Source: Oceanobacillus senegalensis (lineage in GTDB: Bacteria > Bacillota > Bacilli > Bacillales > Amphibacillaceae). From it: a stretch of DNA of 64,000 nucleotides. The stretch covers positions 1,081,049 through 1,145,048 of the forward strand of contig NZ_LT839648.1 in NCBI RefSeq assembly GCF_900176885.1. The letters run 5' to 3'. Both the position numbers and the translations under genes were made by a program. Each line of letters begins with the position of its first letter. Position 1 is the stretch's first letter. Positions 7,221 through 59,878 of this stretch are shown piece by piece. The notes under the pieces were generated by a model that was not told where the DNA came from, did not search any database, and saw only the letters and a program-made list of their open reading frames with translations.

Positions 7221-7261
7221 ATTGATAGTTAAGAGGTTTTAAATTAAATTATTTTAAATGT

Positions 7262-7517
7262 AAATGCAGGGATTGGGAAGAGTACAATTCGGAAACCTTT
7301 AGAGAGGGAAATCTAGCGCTGAAAATTTCCTAGGATTTTTGATTTGGAAGGTCGCCCATGAAGCAGCTTCTTTGAAAATAATAGTAGAAGAAGCCGGTAA
7401 CAGCCGTTATTGGAATAAGTGTACAGGTTCATGTAATACATATAATCTGTAAACAAAGGTGGTACCACGGAAGTTAGACCCTTTTCGTCCTTTTATGGAT
7501 GAAAGGGGCTTTTTTGA
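7262..7517 (+). promoter_or_regulatory. T-box leader of valS (valine-specific)
   Basis: Uncharged tRNA binds this leader and lets transcription continue into valS. The conserved antiterminator sequence AAAGGTGGTACCACGG is at 7455-7470. It is followed by a terminator whose arms are GACCCTTTTCGTCC and GGATGAAAGGGGC with a T run (7478-7517). In the specifier loop, GGAAG-GTC-GCCC places a Val codon, GTC, at 7351-7353, followed by a purine as usual. The GCTGAA and GAGAGGG segments near 7300 belong to stem I. The leader ends 54 bases before the valS ATG. Confidence 0.92.
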
Positions 7518-11667: not shown

Positions 11668-12216
11668 ATGCCAGCAGAATCAATTATGATTAAGGATGTA
11701 CCTAAAGAAGATAGGCCACGTGAGAGACTATTAAAGTATGGGGCGAATCACTTGTCGAATCAAGAGCTTTTTGCAATTTTGTTAGGTAGTGGTACAAAGG
11801 ATGAATCAGTAATGTCCCTTTCCAATCGTATTTTAATGCATTTTGAGGGTTTAAAACTATTAAAAGATGCAACAATTGAAGAATTGATAGCAATTAAAGG
11901 GATAGGTACTGCGAAAGGGGTGTTACTGTTATCGGCAATAGAAATAGGGAAGAGAATGAATCAGTATCGACCAGATGAAAAATATGTTATACGATCACCT
12001 GATGACGGAGCGGAATTTGTTATGGAGGAAATGAGAAGTTTAAAACAGGAGCATTTTGTTGTATTATTTCTCGATACTAAAAATCAAGTTATCCATAGAC
12101 AAACTATTTTTATTGGTAGTCTCAATGCTTCTATCGTACATCCGCGTGAAGTTTATCGTGAAGCCGTAAAACGGTCTTCAGCTTCAATTATCGTTGTGCA
12201 TAATCATCCCTCGGGA
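11668..12216 (+). CDS. radC: RadC, 5' exon (interrupted by a group II intron)
   Basis: First 183 codons of RadC, a JAMM/MPN+ metalloprotease-fold protein of uncertain cellular role; DNA repair was proposed early and later questioned. The N-terminal helix-hairpin-helix region (ELIAIKGIGTAKG) and the JAB domain up to VVHNHPSG are intact. The intron begins after GGA (Gly183), so the two histidines of the HxHx10D metal motif are here while the aspartate is in the second exon at 14747. Read through without splicing, the frame ends six codons later at 12237, giving a 189-residue protein without the third ligand. The ribosome binding site GGGAGGAG precedes the ATG. Splicing restores 229 residues, the normal length. 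Confidence 0.93.
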
Positions 12217-12791
12217 GTGCGCCTGCAAAGTGCTTAATTTTAGCGATTTCTAAGGAAATCTTGAACTCCTTACAATGTTCTATGGTCAGCATCTTACCTT
12301 AAGGGGAAACCCAAAAAGGGAACAGAGCATGATGTGAAAAGGAGAAAAGACGACTAAGCTATCTATTGGTCGAGTCAGTTCTTCAGACCAAGTGATGTAT
12401 GGTAAAAGCTACACTGCTTGAATTCTAGACGAGTGAGCGATGGGTGCGCCATTGTCTACGGTAGTTAACAGGCAATGAGGGCAAAATGGAGGACGTATCT
12501 CCTGAGCGTCCTTGGGAAATGGCTACTTTCCTATCCATAGTAAGGTTTGTCCTTCAATCCTCGGGCCCCGAGGAAACCGTCAAAAGGGATACCTAACCAT
12601 CACGTATCTAAAATTATATCATAATGCAGGGATTACCTACGTGCAAGTGCCAATTGGCTATTAGACAGCGGTCTAATGATTATGCATATGGTAACGGAGA
12701 CTCCGTAGTACCCAACGTTTGCTTGTAATGAGTTTAGCAGGGGGAAGGGAGACAGGTTGATGTTAACGTTAACTAGAAAGGAGTCATGAAC

Positions 12792-14408
12792 ATGGCAATT
12801 AATCCATTTCGACAGTTAGACGTTATAAGGAATGCTTCTCAAAAAGGAAACATGATTATGGATTGTTACCGACTTATGTATAACAAAGAGTTGTGGATTA
12901 AAGCATATGTAAAACTATATCCGAATCCAGGAAATTTAATAAAAGGAACTTCGAATGAAACAATCGATGATTTCAGTTTACAAAAAGTAGATGACATCAT
13001 AGCGCAATTAAAAGCTGGAACATTCCGTTTTGCACCGATGGTTTACATTCCTAAGTTAAATGGTAAAAAGAGACCGCTTGGAGTTCCTTATTTCAAAGAT
13101 AAGTTAGTACAGGAAGTTATGAGAATGATATTGGAAAATGTTTATGAGCCAAGATTCTCTGAAAACTCACATGGGTTTAGAGAAGGTAGAAGCTGTCATA
13201 CAGCACTTTCTCAAATTAAAAATACATGGAAAGGTCTCACATGGTGTATTGGAGGAGATATGAGGGGTTTCTTCAACCATATTGATCATACGGCATTACT
13301 AAAACTTATATCAAAAAAAATAAAAGATCGTCGTTTCCTACTATTAATTCATAATGCTCTTACTAATGGGGTAATGGAAAATTGGTCATTCCATAAAACC
13401 TATAGTGGCACACCACAAGGAGGTGTCATTTCTCCTATTCTAACCAATATCTATCTTCATGAGTTTGACCTGTTTATGGAAAAACAAATTAAGGGATTTA
13501 ATAAAGGTAAGGTTAGAGTAAGAAATGAGGATTACATCGAGGTTCACTCTAAGATTAGAATACTTTCACGAAAGGTTAAAAGACTAGATGATATAAACCG
13601 GCATAGCCATTGGCAAGGAAGGGAGGAGTTAGTCCTAAATATCCAGGAGCTTAAAGCCAAACTAGTAAACGTTTCTTCTATGGACCTAATGGCTAAAAAC
13701 AATCAAAGAATGAAATACGTCCGTTATGCCGGTGATTTTGTGATTGGAATTGCTGGCTCAAAACAGAGTGCTATAAAAATGAAAGAAACGATTAAATATT
13801 TTCTTGAAAAGGAACTTCATCTAGAGCTTAGTGATGAAAAAACATTTATTACTCATCTAGAAAATCCAATACCCTTTCTTGGATACCAATTTCACAGATG
13901 GAATGAGGCTAAGGTTAAAAGAGCTACCTATAAAAACCAAAAACATCCATTGAAGAAGAGAAGTTTATCAAGTGCGATAAAGTTAAAGATTCCTGAAAAG
14001 AAAATGAAAGAAATGGCAATTAAAAACGGATATGGTAATTTAAACAACTTTAAAATTGTACATAGAGCAAAACTAGTAAACAATTCGGAAGTGGAAATAC
14101 TTCATACCTATAACACTGAATTGTGTGGAGTCGCTAATTACTACAAGTTAGCTAATAACTATCATTATTTAGATAAACTATTTTATTTAGCCGAAAGTAG
14201 TTTCATTAAAACAATCGCTAATAAACGAAGGAGCACATCTATGAAGGTTGCTTCCAGCATGCGAACCCATAAACAAGGGGGTTTATCATTTGTCAGGAAA
14301 AATGAACATGGCAATGAAAAATTACATCAGTTTGTAAAGCTGAAAGATATGCCAAGGCATAAAGGTGCAATCAAAGCAGACTCTCCTGATATTGATATCC
14401 TTAGTTAA
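12792..14408 (+). CDS. ltrA: Group II intron reverse transcriptase/maturase, probably degenerate
   Basis: Intron-encoded protein that normally assists splicing and, by reverse transcription, retrohoming. The ATG at 12792 (538 residues) has AAAGGAG eight bases upstream; another ATG two codons earlier sits too close to it. RT motifs visible, counted from the earlier ATG, are IPKLNGKKRPLGVP (about 88-101), HGFREGRSCHTALSQI, motif A GGDMRGFFNHID with Asp158, and SGTPQGGVISPILTNIYLH. Motif C reads YAGD (314-317), with GGT at 13731-13733 instead of an Asp codon, which removes a metal-binding aspartate. The maturase X region follows. The frame stops before the HNH region usually found, whose remains lie just downstream. 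Confidence 0.9.
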   Translation: MAINPFRQLDVIRNASQKGNMIMDCYRLMYNKELWIKAYVKLYPNPGNLIKGTSNETIDDFSLQKVDDIIAQLKAGTFRFAPMVYIPKLNGKKRPLGVPYFKDKLVQEVMRMILENVYEPRFSENSHGFREGRSCHTALSQIKNTWKGLTWCIGGDMRGFFNHIDHTALLKLISKKIKDRRFLLLIHNALTNGVMENWSFHKTYSGTPQGGVISPILTNIYLHEFDLFMEKQIKGFNKGKVRVRNEDYIEVHSKIRILSRKVKRLDDINRHSHWQGREELVLNIQELKAKLVNVSSMDLMAKNNQRMKYVRYAGDFVIGIAGSKQSAIKMKETIKYFLEKELHLELSDEKTFITHLENPIPFLGYQFHRWNEAKVKRATYKNQKHPLKKRSLSSAIKLKIPEKKMKEMAIKNGYGNLNNFKIVHRAKLVNNSEVEILHTYNTELCGVANYYKLANNYHYLDKLFYLAESSFIKTIANKRRSTSMKVASSMRTHKQGGLSFVRKNEHGNEKLHQFVKLKDMPRHKGAIKADSPDIDILS

Positions 14409-14424
14409 TATAATGAAATATTAG

Positions 14425-14667
14425 AGTAGAACTAAATTTGAACAGCGTTAATTAGCAAACAAATGCGAATCCTGTGGTATAATAGAAGGTCGGATGGAAG
14501 TTTATTCTACATCTCCGAAAGTAAAAGGACTTAAAAAAATATCTACTATACTTGAACAAGAGAATGATAGAAGGAAACAAAACAACCATTGCCTTTGTTA
14601 CAAATTCCAACATGACCATCATGAGAAGCAAATTCTGATTAGTCAACTGGCGAGCCGTATACGCTGA
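14425..14667 (+). pseudogene. Remnant of the maturase HNH endonuclease domain
   Basis: In the +1 frame relative to the maturase, the DNA reads SRTKFEQR, a TAA at 14449, then LANKCESCG, VKGLKK, and NDRRKQNNHCLCYKFQHDHHEK. This is the order seen in C-terminal HNH/zinc-finger domains of LtrA-type proteins (CExCG, HH, RRK, LCxxCHxxxH). A stop in this frame, a frame change near 14400-14422, loss of the expected HH pair after MEV and disturbed final ligands show decay. The original protein would have been roughly 85 residues longer. Confidence 0.7.
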
Positions 14668-14687
14668 AAGGTGTACGTACGGTTCTG
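14652..14687 (+). ncRNA. Domain V of the radC group II intron
   Basis: The catalytic hairpin of the ribozyme: GAGCCGTAT at the 5' side, a GAAAG tetraloop region, and ACGTACGGTTCTG at the 3' side. It appears intact, in contrast to the neighbouring HNH remnant, which supports retained splicing. Confidence 0.85.
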
Positions 14688-14746
14688 AGGGGGGAATTGT
14701 GAAACCTGTTTTGGAAACAAAGTAAGGCGCATGATTCCTACCCTAC

Positions 14747-14887
14747 GACCCAAGTCCTTCTCAAGAAGATATTCATGTTACAAGACGATTAGTTGAATCT
14801 GGAAAAATGATAGGGATTGAATTATTGGACCACCTTATCATCGGTGATCGAAAATTTGTATCGTTAAAAGAGAAAGGATACTTGTAA
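14747..14887 (+). CDS. radC: RadC, 3' exon
   Basis: Last 46 codons of RadC and its stop. They begin [15 protein letters not shown], which completes the JAMM motif started by HNHPSG in the first exon: the Asp of SQED is the third metal ligand. They end [10 protein letters not shown], a typical RadC C-terminus. The segment has no start codon or ribosome binding site of its own and makes sense only when joined to 11668-12216. The phase is exact (183 complete codons before the intron). Confidence 0.92.
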
Positions 14888-21326: not shown

Positions 21327-21400
21327 AGTAGCACCAGTGCTACAACCGCACAGAGCAGGTTTCTAAACCATGATAGGTACCTGTATGGCGAGTCTGAGTG
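21327..21400 (+). promoter_or_regulatory. Ribosomal protein L21 leader RNA
   Basis: The transcribed interval before rplU holds a perfect small hairpin (GTAGCACCAGTGCTAC) followed by a structured stretch with AGGTACCTGT and GAGTCTGAG. This is the position of the L21 leader, a known autoregulatory element in Firmicutes. I assign it by position and general appearance; exact base pairs were not modelled. Confidence 0.55.
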
Positions 21401-21418
21401 AATTAAGGAGGTGCAAGT

Positions 21419-46124: not shown

Positions 46125-46194
46125 TATATTCATTCCAGTTGATTTTAGAAAATACAGTTTCAATAGAAGTTTGATAAATGTACCTATGATGGAA

Positions 46195-46417
46195 AAAGTA
46201 ATTAGTAGAACGCTTGGATAGAGAGAAAATGTCGCGGGCTGAAAACATTTTTGCAAGAAGAACTAATGAAAGACATTCCTGAGGTTTTATATTGAAATAG
46301 AGTAGATATAAACGTTTTACAGGCGTTAACTGTAAAGAGCGAATGTATGAATATGCATTAACTAGGGTGGCAACGCGGGTAACTCTCGTCCCTTTTCATA
46401 GGGATGGGAGTTTTTTT
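46195..46417 (+). promoter_or_regulatory. T-box leader of hisS-aspS
   Basis: The antiterminator sequence AGGGTGGCAACGCGGG is at 46364-46379. It is followed by a terminator with arms AACTCTCGTCCC and GGGATGGGAGTT and a run of seven T (46380-46417). Stem I shows GATAGAGAG and GGGCTGAAAA. In the specifier region GAAA-GAC-ATTCC places an Asp codon, GAC, at 46272-46274; a His codon, CAT, overlaps it at 46274-46276. Asp fits the usual geometry best. The leader controls both downstream synthetase genes. Confidence 0.9.
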
Positions 46418-49607: not shown

Positions 49608-49717
49608 TTTGTTTAGCTGATGACATACTTTTGTAATGGCTTTTCATAATAATGAATGTTGCGAAAATTACGTTGGCATGTTAATATAAATTTACAAAGT
49701 AAAATAACTTATGTATA

Positions 49718-49892
49718 TATCCTGATATGTACGTCTTTTTAATATATTTTGACCGAACAACTTTACAAATGGGAGCATCGAGTTTTTATGTTGCGTGCAT
49801 GCCATCAAATGGTGGAAGCATAACATGCATAAAATAGGGCACCCACCTGCCAAATGCGGGATCAAAAAATAAGACGGCATTATCGGGATATA
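49718..49892 (+). ncRNA. ssrS: 6S RNA (SsrS/BsrA type)
   Basis: A gene-free interval after aspS contains a sequence whose ends pair as in 6S RNA: ATCCTGATA near 49719 with TATCGGGAT near 49881. Inside are GCATGCCATCAAATGGTGG, AGCATAACATGCA and CACCCACCTGCC followed by AAATGCGGG, which match the conserved 6S-1 core as I remember it. B. subtilis bsrA also lies just downstream of aspS. The RNA binds sigma-A RNA polymerase holoenzyme and mimics an open promoter. A TTTACA/TATATA pair (49691-49719) could be its promoter. Exact ends are estimated. Confidence 0.85.
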
Positions 49893-49982
49893 TATATAAC
49901 AGCTAATTATTGCAATAATTGATAAAATCGAAGCTTATTTTATACTTCACTCTAAACTAAAATTAAATTTTTATAAAGTGTA

Positions 49983-59612: not shown

Positions 59613-59644
59613 CAAAATATGGAAAAGTGTATATCATAAATAAA

Positions 59645-59878
59645 ATGTTGATAGTGATAAGTACATGTTAATTTAGGTTCGAAAGAGAGGGATTTCCATT
59701 AGGCTGAAAGAAATCCGAATCTAATTTCATGGAAAGCTACACTGGAGTGCGGTTAATACCCGCCGGTTTTCAGACCGTTAACATGGATTAAAGTGGTGAA
59801 TGGTTATGTCATTCATTATTAGGGTGGTACCGCGAATAATCTCGTCCCTGCATCAAGCAGAGAGGAGATTTTTTTAGT
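59645..59878 (+). promoter_or_regulatory. T-box leader of alaS (alanine-specific)
   Basis: AGGGTGGTACCGCG at 59821-59834 is the antiterminator sequence. It is followed by a terminator with arms AATCTCGTCCCTGC and GCAGAGAGGAGATT and seven T. Stem I contains GAAAGAGAGGG and AGGCTGAAAG. In the specifier loop GGAAA-GCT-ACACTGGAGT gives an Ala codon, GCT, at 59736-59738, followed by A as expected. Confidence 0.93.

Follow-up and report, generated by a model that had tools for sequence, protein, structure and literature searches.

How RadC can be made from a gene that is cut within its own catalytic motif, and what has become of the element that cuts it, are the questions raised by the radC locus of Oceanobacillus senegalensis. 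The locus lies in a 64,000-nucleotide stretch of DNA (contig NZ_LT839648.1 of assembly GCF_900176885.1, positions 1,081,049 to 1,145,048 of the forward strand; "the window" denotes this whole stretch), and the cutting element is a group II intron. Comparisons of sequence make it very likely that an LtrA-like intron that homes to radC was transferred in, lost its mobility and is now served by a splicing-only maturase. The gene is arranged as follows, in window coordinates.

11668..12216, + strand: radC 5' exon, residues 1-183, ending in HNHPSG (UPF0758_N and RadC Pfam matches; NCBIfam RadC equivalog)
12217..14746, + strand: group II intron, 2530 bp, GTGCG...CTAC (boundaries, Rfam, joined frame; a single copy in the genome)
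14747..14887, + strand: radC 3' exon, 46 residues including the JAMM Asp, plus stop (exon joining; purifying selection in relatives)

The 5' exon ends in CATAATCATCCCTCGGGA at 12216 and exon 2 begins with GACCCAAGT at 14747. A sequence-only reading of this DNA had placed the cut in the JAMM motif (HxHx10D) of RadC after HNHPSG, with the aspartate beyond the intron, and had proposed that excision at 12216/14747 restores the frame and yields 229 residues. These coordinates and boundaries proved exact, and in silico joining of the exons gave a translation of 229 residues plus stop with the frame kept. The joined protein displays the features of the RadC family, namely a UPF0758 N domain and a JAB/JAMM domain with HxHx10D; it is 89% identical to the RadC of G006, in which the site is empty, and neither exon contains a stop. 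In the unspliced message the radC frame meets a stop six residues past exon 1, leaving an open reading frame (ORF) of 189 aa. Because of this anatomy, in which the Asp is encoded 3' of the intron and HxHx10D becomes whole only once the exons are joined, the proposed dependence of RadC function on splicing is supported. The same reading had pointed out that a second intact radC would make this copy dispensable; the genome (4.30 Mb, 99.99% complete) yielded none, and a back-up copy was rejected on that ground. Correct annotation of radC in these bacteria requires exon joining.

Introns at the same position were sought by scanning 84,980 species genomes for the junction HNHPSG-GTGCG, which gave 71 loci. 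Fifty-three of them begin GTGCGCCT and were kept; among the other 18, 11 continue as ordinary RadC and 7 are without the RadC 3' part. Addition of G000, G008 and G011 (G009 being the same as L089) brought the number to 56, and removal of L083, L094 and L110, which have no 3' exon, left 53 complete introns. The 53 loci belong to Bacilli of many genera, with the exception of L125, which comes from a metagenome bin of Calditrichia. In the family to which the window's host belongs, the junction pattern occurs in 28 of 159 genomes, representing 19 of 46 genera, and the reversed pattern, used as a control, had no match in the same 159 genomes. The sequence-only reading had suggested that the uninterrupted site be looked for in close relatives, and a full-length radC match without a break is present in 118 of the 159 genomes (manual count). 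The remaining 13 comprise three with a different intron nearby (G001, G004, G027), two with an intron after HPREV (G002, G056), one with a damaged junction (G046), two that are partial (G042, G129), and five with other inserts (G061, G117, G074, G143, G118). The mreB gene lies no more than 2 kb downstream in 42 of 53 cases, and the locus is therefore mostly the ordinary radC locus. In a plasmid collection, 92 records had distant matches, none covering 80% of the query. By these comparisons the site after the HNHPSG codons is a recurrent homing site in radC. The counts in the family and a published precedent, described in part of PMC4424553, do not support the view of the sequence-only reading that such an insertion is a rarity.

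The proposed GTGCG start, domain V, CTAC end and length of 2530 bases were borne out. The intron runs from GTGCGCCTGC on its 5' side to CCTACCCTAC on its 3' side, in agreement with the GUGYG and AY end rules, and comparison with a group II covariance model, a check that had also been suggested, gave an Rfam Intron_gpII match at 14650-14746 (65.4 bits, E 1.3e-10; domain V/VI). Its splicing elements are listed below.

12441..12446, + strand: probable exon-binding site 2 (EBS2), TGGGTG, pairing at 5 of 6 positions with intron-binding site 2 (IBS2), CATCCC, at 12205-12210 (alignment column over 53 introns)
12499, + strand: probable delta nucleotide, C, opposite G14747, with which exon 2 begins (C in 45 of 53)
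12500..12505, + strand: EBS1, TCCTGA, pairing at all six positions with IBS1, TCGGGA, at 12211-12216, one of them a G-T wobble (pairing column)
14652..14685, + strand: intron domain V (Rfam; alignment)
14688..14744, + strand: intron domain VI, with the branch-point A at 14740, 7th from the 3' end (alignment)

In the EBS1 column, 33 of the 53 introns match the last six bases of exon 1 completely, the next best column reaching 6. Over all 53 introns, 268 of 318 EBS1-IBS1 positions pair, as against a mean of 221 and a maximum of 249 with shuffled exons (10,000 shuffles, with relatedness among the introns left in). Exon 1 finishes in Ser and Gly codons, whose wobble bases consequently differ from species to species; at these positions, -1 and -4, 81 of 106 pair (shuffled mean 46.7, maximum 65; 10,000 shuffles), and A-T, C-G and T-A pairs are all seen. 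EBS2 is weaker than EBS1: all 6 nucleotides pair in 18 of 53 introns, with 21, 50, 49, 50, 47 and 42 of 53 pairing at the individual positions. The first base of exon 2 is G in 48 of 53 and A in four, three of the four facing T at the delta position. The domain V pairs are intact in every one of the 51 aligned introns, compensatory changes occur in domain VI across the same 51, and in 52 of 52 the branch A lies 7 from the 3' end. The domain V/VI alignment excludes L122 and L125, and the branch count excludes L122, whose 3' end was misplaced. The possibility that the insert is not an intron was rejected; the EBS1-IBS1 pairing, higher than in every shuffle, and the empty reversed control speak against chance. 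We infer that the ribozyme, aided by the intron's own protein, would excise the intron from the radC mRNA and thereby restore RadC.

The protein in question, and the lesions found in its coding region, are the following.

12786..14408, + strand: intron-encoded protein, 540 aa, with a reverse transcriptase (RT) fold and domain X, best solved relative LtrA (ORF, Pfam, NCBIfam, alignment)
13725..13736, + strand: YAGD in place of YADD, the first RT active-site Asp being changed to Gly (alignments with LtrA and RYADD relatives)
14401..14664, + strand: HNH endonuclease remnant, in a frame that differs from that of the ORF and with two stops (tblastn)

Pfam identified RT and maturase domains in the intron protein and NCBIfam an RT, the NCBIfam group II equivalog scoring 261.5, under its cut-off of 300. 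Among solved chains LtrA is the closest (E 8.5e-107, followed by the GsI-IIC RT at 8.7e-40), and by protein likeness the intron is LtrA-like and would be IIA-type and mitochondrial-like (class ML). LtrA is an active RT, maturase and endonuclease, and its intron, Ll.LtrB of Lactococcus, starts with GTGCGCC and belongs to that class. The YADD that LtrA retains is aligned to the YAGD of the window protein, in which the altered codon is GGT at 13731-13733. Two features of active mobile introns, YADD/YxDD and, in those that have one, a DNA endonuclease domain, are thus missing from the window intron, and its active-site change, open frame and retained domain X are those of the degenerate kind of protein exemplified by O.i.I2 of Oceanobacillus iheyensis. 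Neither the YAGD motif nor the broken endonuclease was part of the sequence-only account.

The Oceanobacillus indicireducens radC intron (L089) is inserted at the same site, is 2535 bp long and encodes a protein 82% identical to that of the window. Unlike the window's intron, it possesses both RYADD and an HNH endonuclease, and is probably still mobile. The HNH remnant in the window is 59% identical to the O. indicireducens protein (E 5.8e-22, tblastn), the ratio of nonsynonymous to synonymous substitution (dN/dS) between the two intron proteins is 0.15, and 84-97% of the positions conserved in RYADD proteins are unchanged per bin in the window protein, through the end of domain X. Such good keeping of the rest of the RT would also suit an intron that is still mobile, with the YAGD and endonuclease lesions attributed to sequencing errors or strain variation. 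This is improbable, since the lesions are independent, one lying in the active site and the others, a shifted frame with two stops, in what is left of the endonuclease; since the genome holds one copy of the intron; and since L129 has another point change at the same motif (YAED). With the RT scaffold and domain X kept, the active site altered and the endonuclease broken, the protein most likely lost its mobility functions and kept its maturase function, and would therefore be a splicing-only maturase in an intron that is stuck.

The 53 complete introns include 15 with RYADD, 11 of which also have the HNH motif, and 33 with a damaged active site or a mostly eroded RT domain; the rest are one with YSDD, one with an ORF for domain X only, and three without an ORF. 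In 34 introns an ORF of 230 residues or longer lacks RYADD, namely in those of the window (YAGD), L129 (YAED), L115 (YADI), L076 (YSDD) and 30 more eroded ones. YxDD is missing at or beside the aligned place in 32 of these 34; the exceptions are L076, whose protein may be active, and L138, which has YLDD one column off and in which little of the conserved RT sequence survives (0.00-0.20 of positions per RT bin). None of the 34 encodes an intact in-frame endonuclease domain, the best keeping 0.36 of the conserved positions, and the domain is already lost or truncated in four RYADD proteins (L097, L108, L116, L123), so that the endonuclease seems to be the first to go. Domain X has an ungapped core in 32 of the 34; the other two, L079 and L133, still have the domain in another frame.

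Reduction goes further in some hosts. Halolactibacillus proteins have 234-252 residues left, the domain X part alone was found in Gracilibacillus halophilus (L141), in a 151-residue ORF, and L093, L095 and L102 (1067, 705 and 552 bp) have no ORF of more than 80 residues, with a domain V/VI match in each. At exactly the window's site, G008 has a degenerate ORF of 442 aa from which YADD and much of the RT have been lost; Pfam gave no match for it, the only degenerate protein so searched. In contrast to this much eroded protein, that of the window is near full length, with one active-site residue altered and its endonuclease broken. A model of the L080 protein (mean predicted local distance difference test score 76; its alignment included the window protein) had the LtrA complex as its best match and as the only one at E <0.001, with a retron RT second and three further group II proteins in the first six. 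The intron protein tree has five changes, three of them forced, which is a rough estimate, and long branches join among the most eroded proteins. As read from these proteins, the order of decay seems to be the endonuclease, then the stretch around YADD, then most of the RT domain. The window intron would represent an early stage of this series, which in related genera would lead on to domain X alone and, in a few species, to no protein.

Pairing at EBS1 differs along the series, being perfect in 30 of 38 introns without RYADD, a set that includes L076 (YSDD), and in 3 of 15 with RYADD (Fisher p 0.0001, relatedness not removed). This difference, together with the fact that maturase and RadC need different forms of one transcript, could be explained if the intron were kept since its splicing regulates RadC, for example via how much maturase the unspliced message yields; control of RadC at the splicing step had also been raised in the sequence-only reading. 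Regulation of this kind is unlikely as the reason for retention, given that most genomes of the family have an unbroken radC (118 of 159) and that compensation for a tolerated parasite accounts for the same facts. The simplest account is a mobile intron trapped at a conserved position and then domesticated.

Arrival from another species by horizontal transfer is proposed because silent divergence is much lower in the intron than in radC, at 0.43 for the intron ORF and 0.85 for radC when the window is compared with O. indicireducens. Among the 15 introns with full-length proteins, the ORF silent difference is below that of radC in 98 of 105 pairs, in keeping with transfer between species that had already separated. 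The intron would have entered this genome before its mobility was lost. Nine close degenerate pairs have similar ORF and radC values, as would be expected if intron and radC were inherited vertically together; examples are 0.41 and 0.31 for G008 and G011, and 0.51 and 0.46 for two Halolactibacillus. In the protein tree, whose deeper order is unsure owing to long branches, a supported group of eight comprises Amphibacillus, Halolactibacillus and Streptohalobacillus; seven of the eight stand together with a support of 94 in the RadC tree, in which L142 was not included. The RadC tree, into which 6 of 20 uninterrupted Oceanobacillus copies were entered, was poorly resolved and was used for host clades only.

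Selection was estimated on the intron ORFs and on RadC exon 2. Degenerate ORFs gave dN/dS values of 0.22-0.50 in 12 of 16 pairs, the other four being saturated, and the ORFs of six RYADD pairs gave 0.06-0.12. For exon 2, the values were 0.00-0.08 in six of eight pairs with degenerate introns, the other two being saturated, and 0.00-0.04 in the three estimable pairs of five with an uninterrupted radC. Exon 2 is under purifying selection next to degenerate introns, and splicing therefore very probably works; this selection is the best available evidence for splicing in the cell. It also bears on whether radC in the window is dead, the intron having lost its splicing and the gene being a pseudogene. 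In the relatives G064, G074 and G143, radC is broken by other elements, and the splice junction is damaged in G046, which favors such a reading. The window retains every splice element that was sought, no stop interrupts either exon, and the RadC obtained by joining them closely matches the empty-site copy of G006, and these observations, with the selection on exon 2, leave a pseudogene little probability.

Several observations weigh against the preferred reading, that of a radC-homing intron turned splicing-only resident. Splicing and maturase action were deduced from sequence, and YAGD depends on one base in one assembly. The shuffle test of EBS1-IBS1 pairing did not remove relatedness, at least one of the six EBS1 pairs is missing in 20 of 53 introns, including 12 of the 15 with RYADD, and several domain VI pairs fail in some introns, the worst pair in 12 of 51. 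Several of the 12 dN/dS values for degenerate ORFs rest on synonymous differences (dS) >1. The ORF silent difference is below that of radC also in 214 of 276 degenerate pairs, near saturation, and the identities of intron protein and RadC are correlated (Spearman 0.47, p 0.006, for full-length proteins; a weak 0.24, p 0.016, for degenerate ones); movement was therefore not free of host relatedness. In 5 of 53 cases mreB was not seen although at least 600 bases were available, and six more have too little DNA for a judgment. Finally, G046 has an intron at the window's site with a damaged 5' junction, and radC can therefore be lost.

A close precedent exists. As described in part of PMC4424553, O.i.I2 of O. 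iheyensis is a class ML group II intron with RadC-coding exons and a protein without YADD, and the same passages of this 2015 review state that no other bacterial intron whose protein has a degenerate RT was known. The window intron shares with O.i.I2 its insertion in radC and the lack of YADD in its protein. Within the literature searched, in which full text was that of open PMC papers, a group II intron in radC was met in PMC4424553 alone among the passages retrieved; those naming both terms in PMC368164, PMC9203015, PMC11376236, PMC10011109 and PMC11342252 describe no intron in radC, and the word radC is absent from PMC3552965, which deals with proteins without an endonuclease domain. A radC intron of this kind is thus already known, and the breadth of the decay series is not in print within the literature searched.

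Other systems show partial likeness. The chloroplast trnK intron of plants, with its protein MatK, likewise combines an eroded RT domain, a retained domain X and a position in a host gene, according to part of PMC4424553; MatK binds several organelle introns, whereas each eroded protein here sits in bacterial radC. Geobacillus kaustophilus, from a related genus, likewise has a group II intron in a chromosomal repair gene, in this case recA, as listed among the references of PMC4424553. The RT-damaged, domain X-only and ORF-less introns counted above were all recovered from one site in one gene, and offer a natural series for testing the passage from a mobile ribozyme to a fixed splicing-only intron, a path already proposed for introns of organelles and for how spliceosomal introns arose. 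The small domain X proteins are candidate minimal maturases. We lean slightly towards viewing the series as a bacterial counterpart of organelle intron evolution, with repeated entry, loss of the endonuclease and then of the RT, vertically inherited splicing-only residents whose proteins shrink or vanish, and co-adaptation of exon and intron, the window intron having just lost its mobility. It is somewhat favored, too, that this process would extend over radC of Bacillaceae and kin, with Halolactibacillus and G. halophilus as the shrunken examples.

Other arrangements of introns in radC were also observed. In L086, L093, L095, L101, L108, L115, L117 and L142, radC is interrupted by two group II introns: one occupies the window's site, the second follows HPREV (residue 162), and an exon of 63 bases separates the two. 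For L142 the locus does not reach the 5' junction of the second intron. The second intron measures 735, 724 and 516 bp in L086, L095 and L101 and has no ORF of more than 80 residues. The intron that follows HPREV in G002 (L064) is 4990 bp long and contains two RT ORFs, of 639 and 608 aa; one intron is probably nested in another there. A different group II intron, GTGCGAC...GCTATC, is inserted a few bases upstream of the window's site in L063, L065 and L069 (G001, G004 and G027) and interrupts the Pro codon of HNHP; in G004 and G027 it is about 950 bp long, and no ORF of 100 residues was found in it. A form of this intron with a 522-residue RT ORF is located in a radC paralog of G002 (L070). 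One genome has two radC genes, 62% and 41% identical to that of the window before residue 162 (L094, L110); both begin such an intron, and the contigs break within it, as expected of near-identical copies. In L187 (G046), the intron at the window's site is without a 5' junction and adjoins a tandem repeat, and this radC is probably broken.

Larger or unrelated inserts were found as well. In G064, G074, G143 and G118 (L190-L195, L199, L200), radC is split near residues 150-160; the inserts are about 42.8, 43.7 and 9.2 kb, that of G118 being on two contigs, and the larger ones are prophage-like in size. G064 carries, in addition to its large upstream insertion, an intron at the window's site (L072). 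Prophages in radC have been published, as part of PMC4774983 indicates. L084 has an upstream break in radC. Another insert, starting TTAA(A/C)CATAGTAT, follows HNHPSGDP in G061, G117 and G042 (L189, L196, L203), in the last case in a shorter radC-like gene, and these three genomes contain extra pieces matching the radC 3' end.

Elsewhere in the window, Rfam identified the following RNAs.

7260-7495, 46177-46396 and 59639-59852: three T-box leaders
49716-49893: 6S RNA
21334-21405: L21 leader

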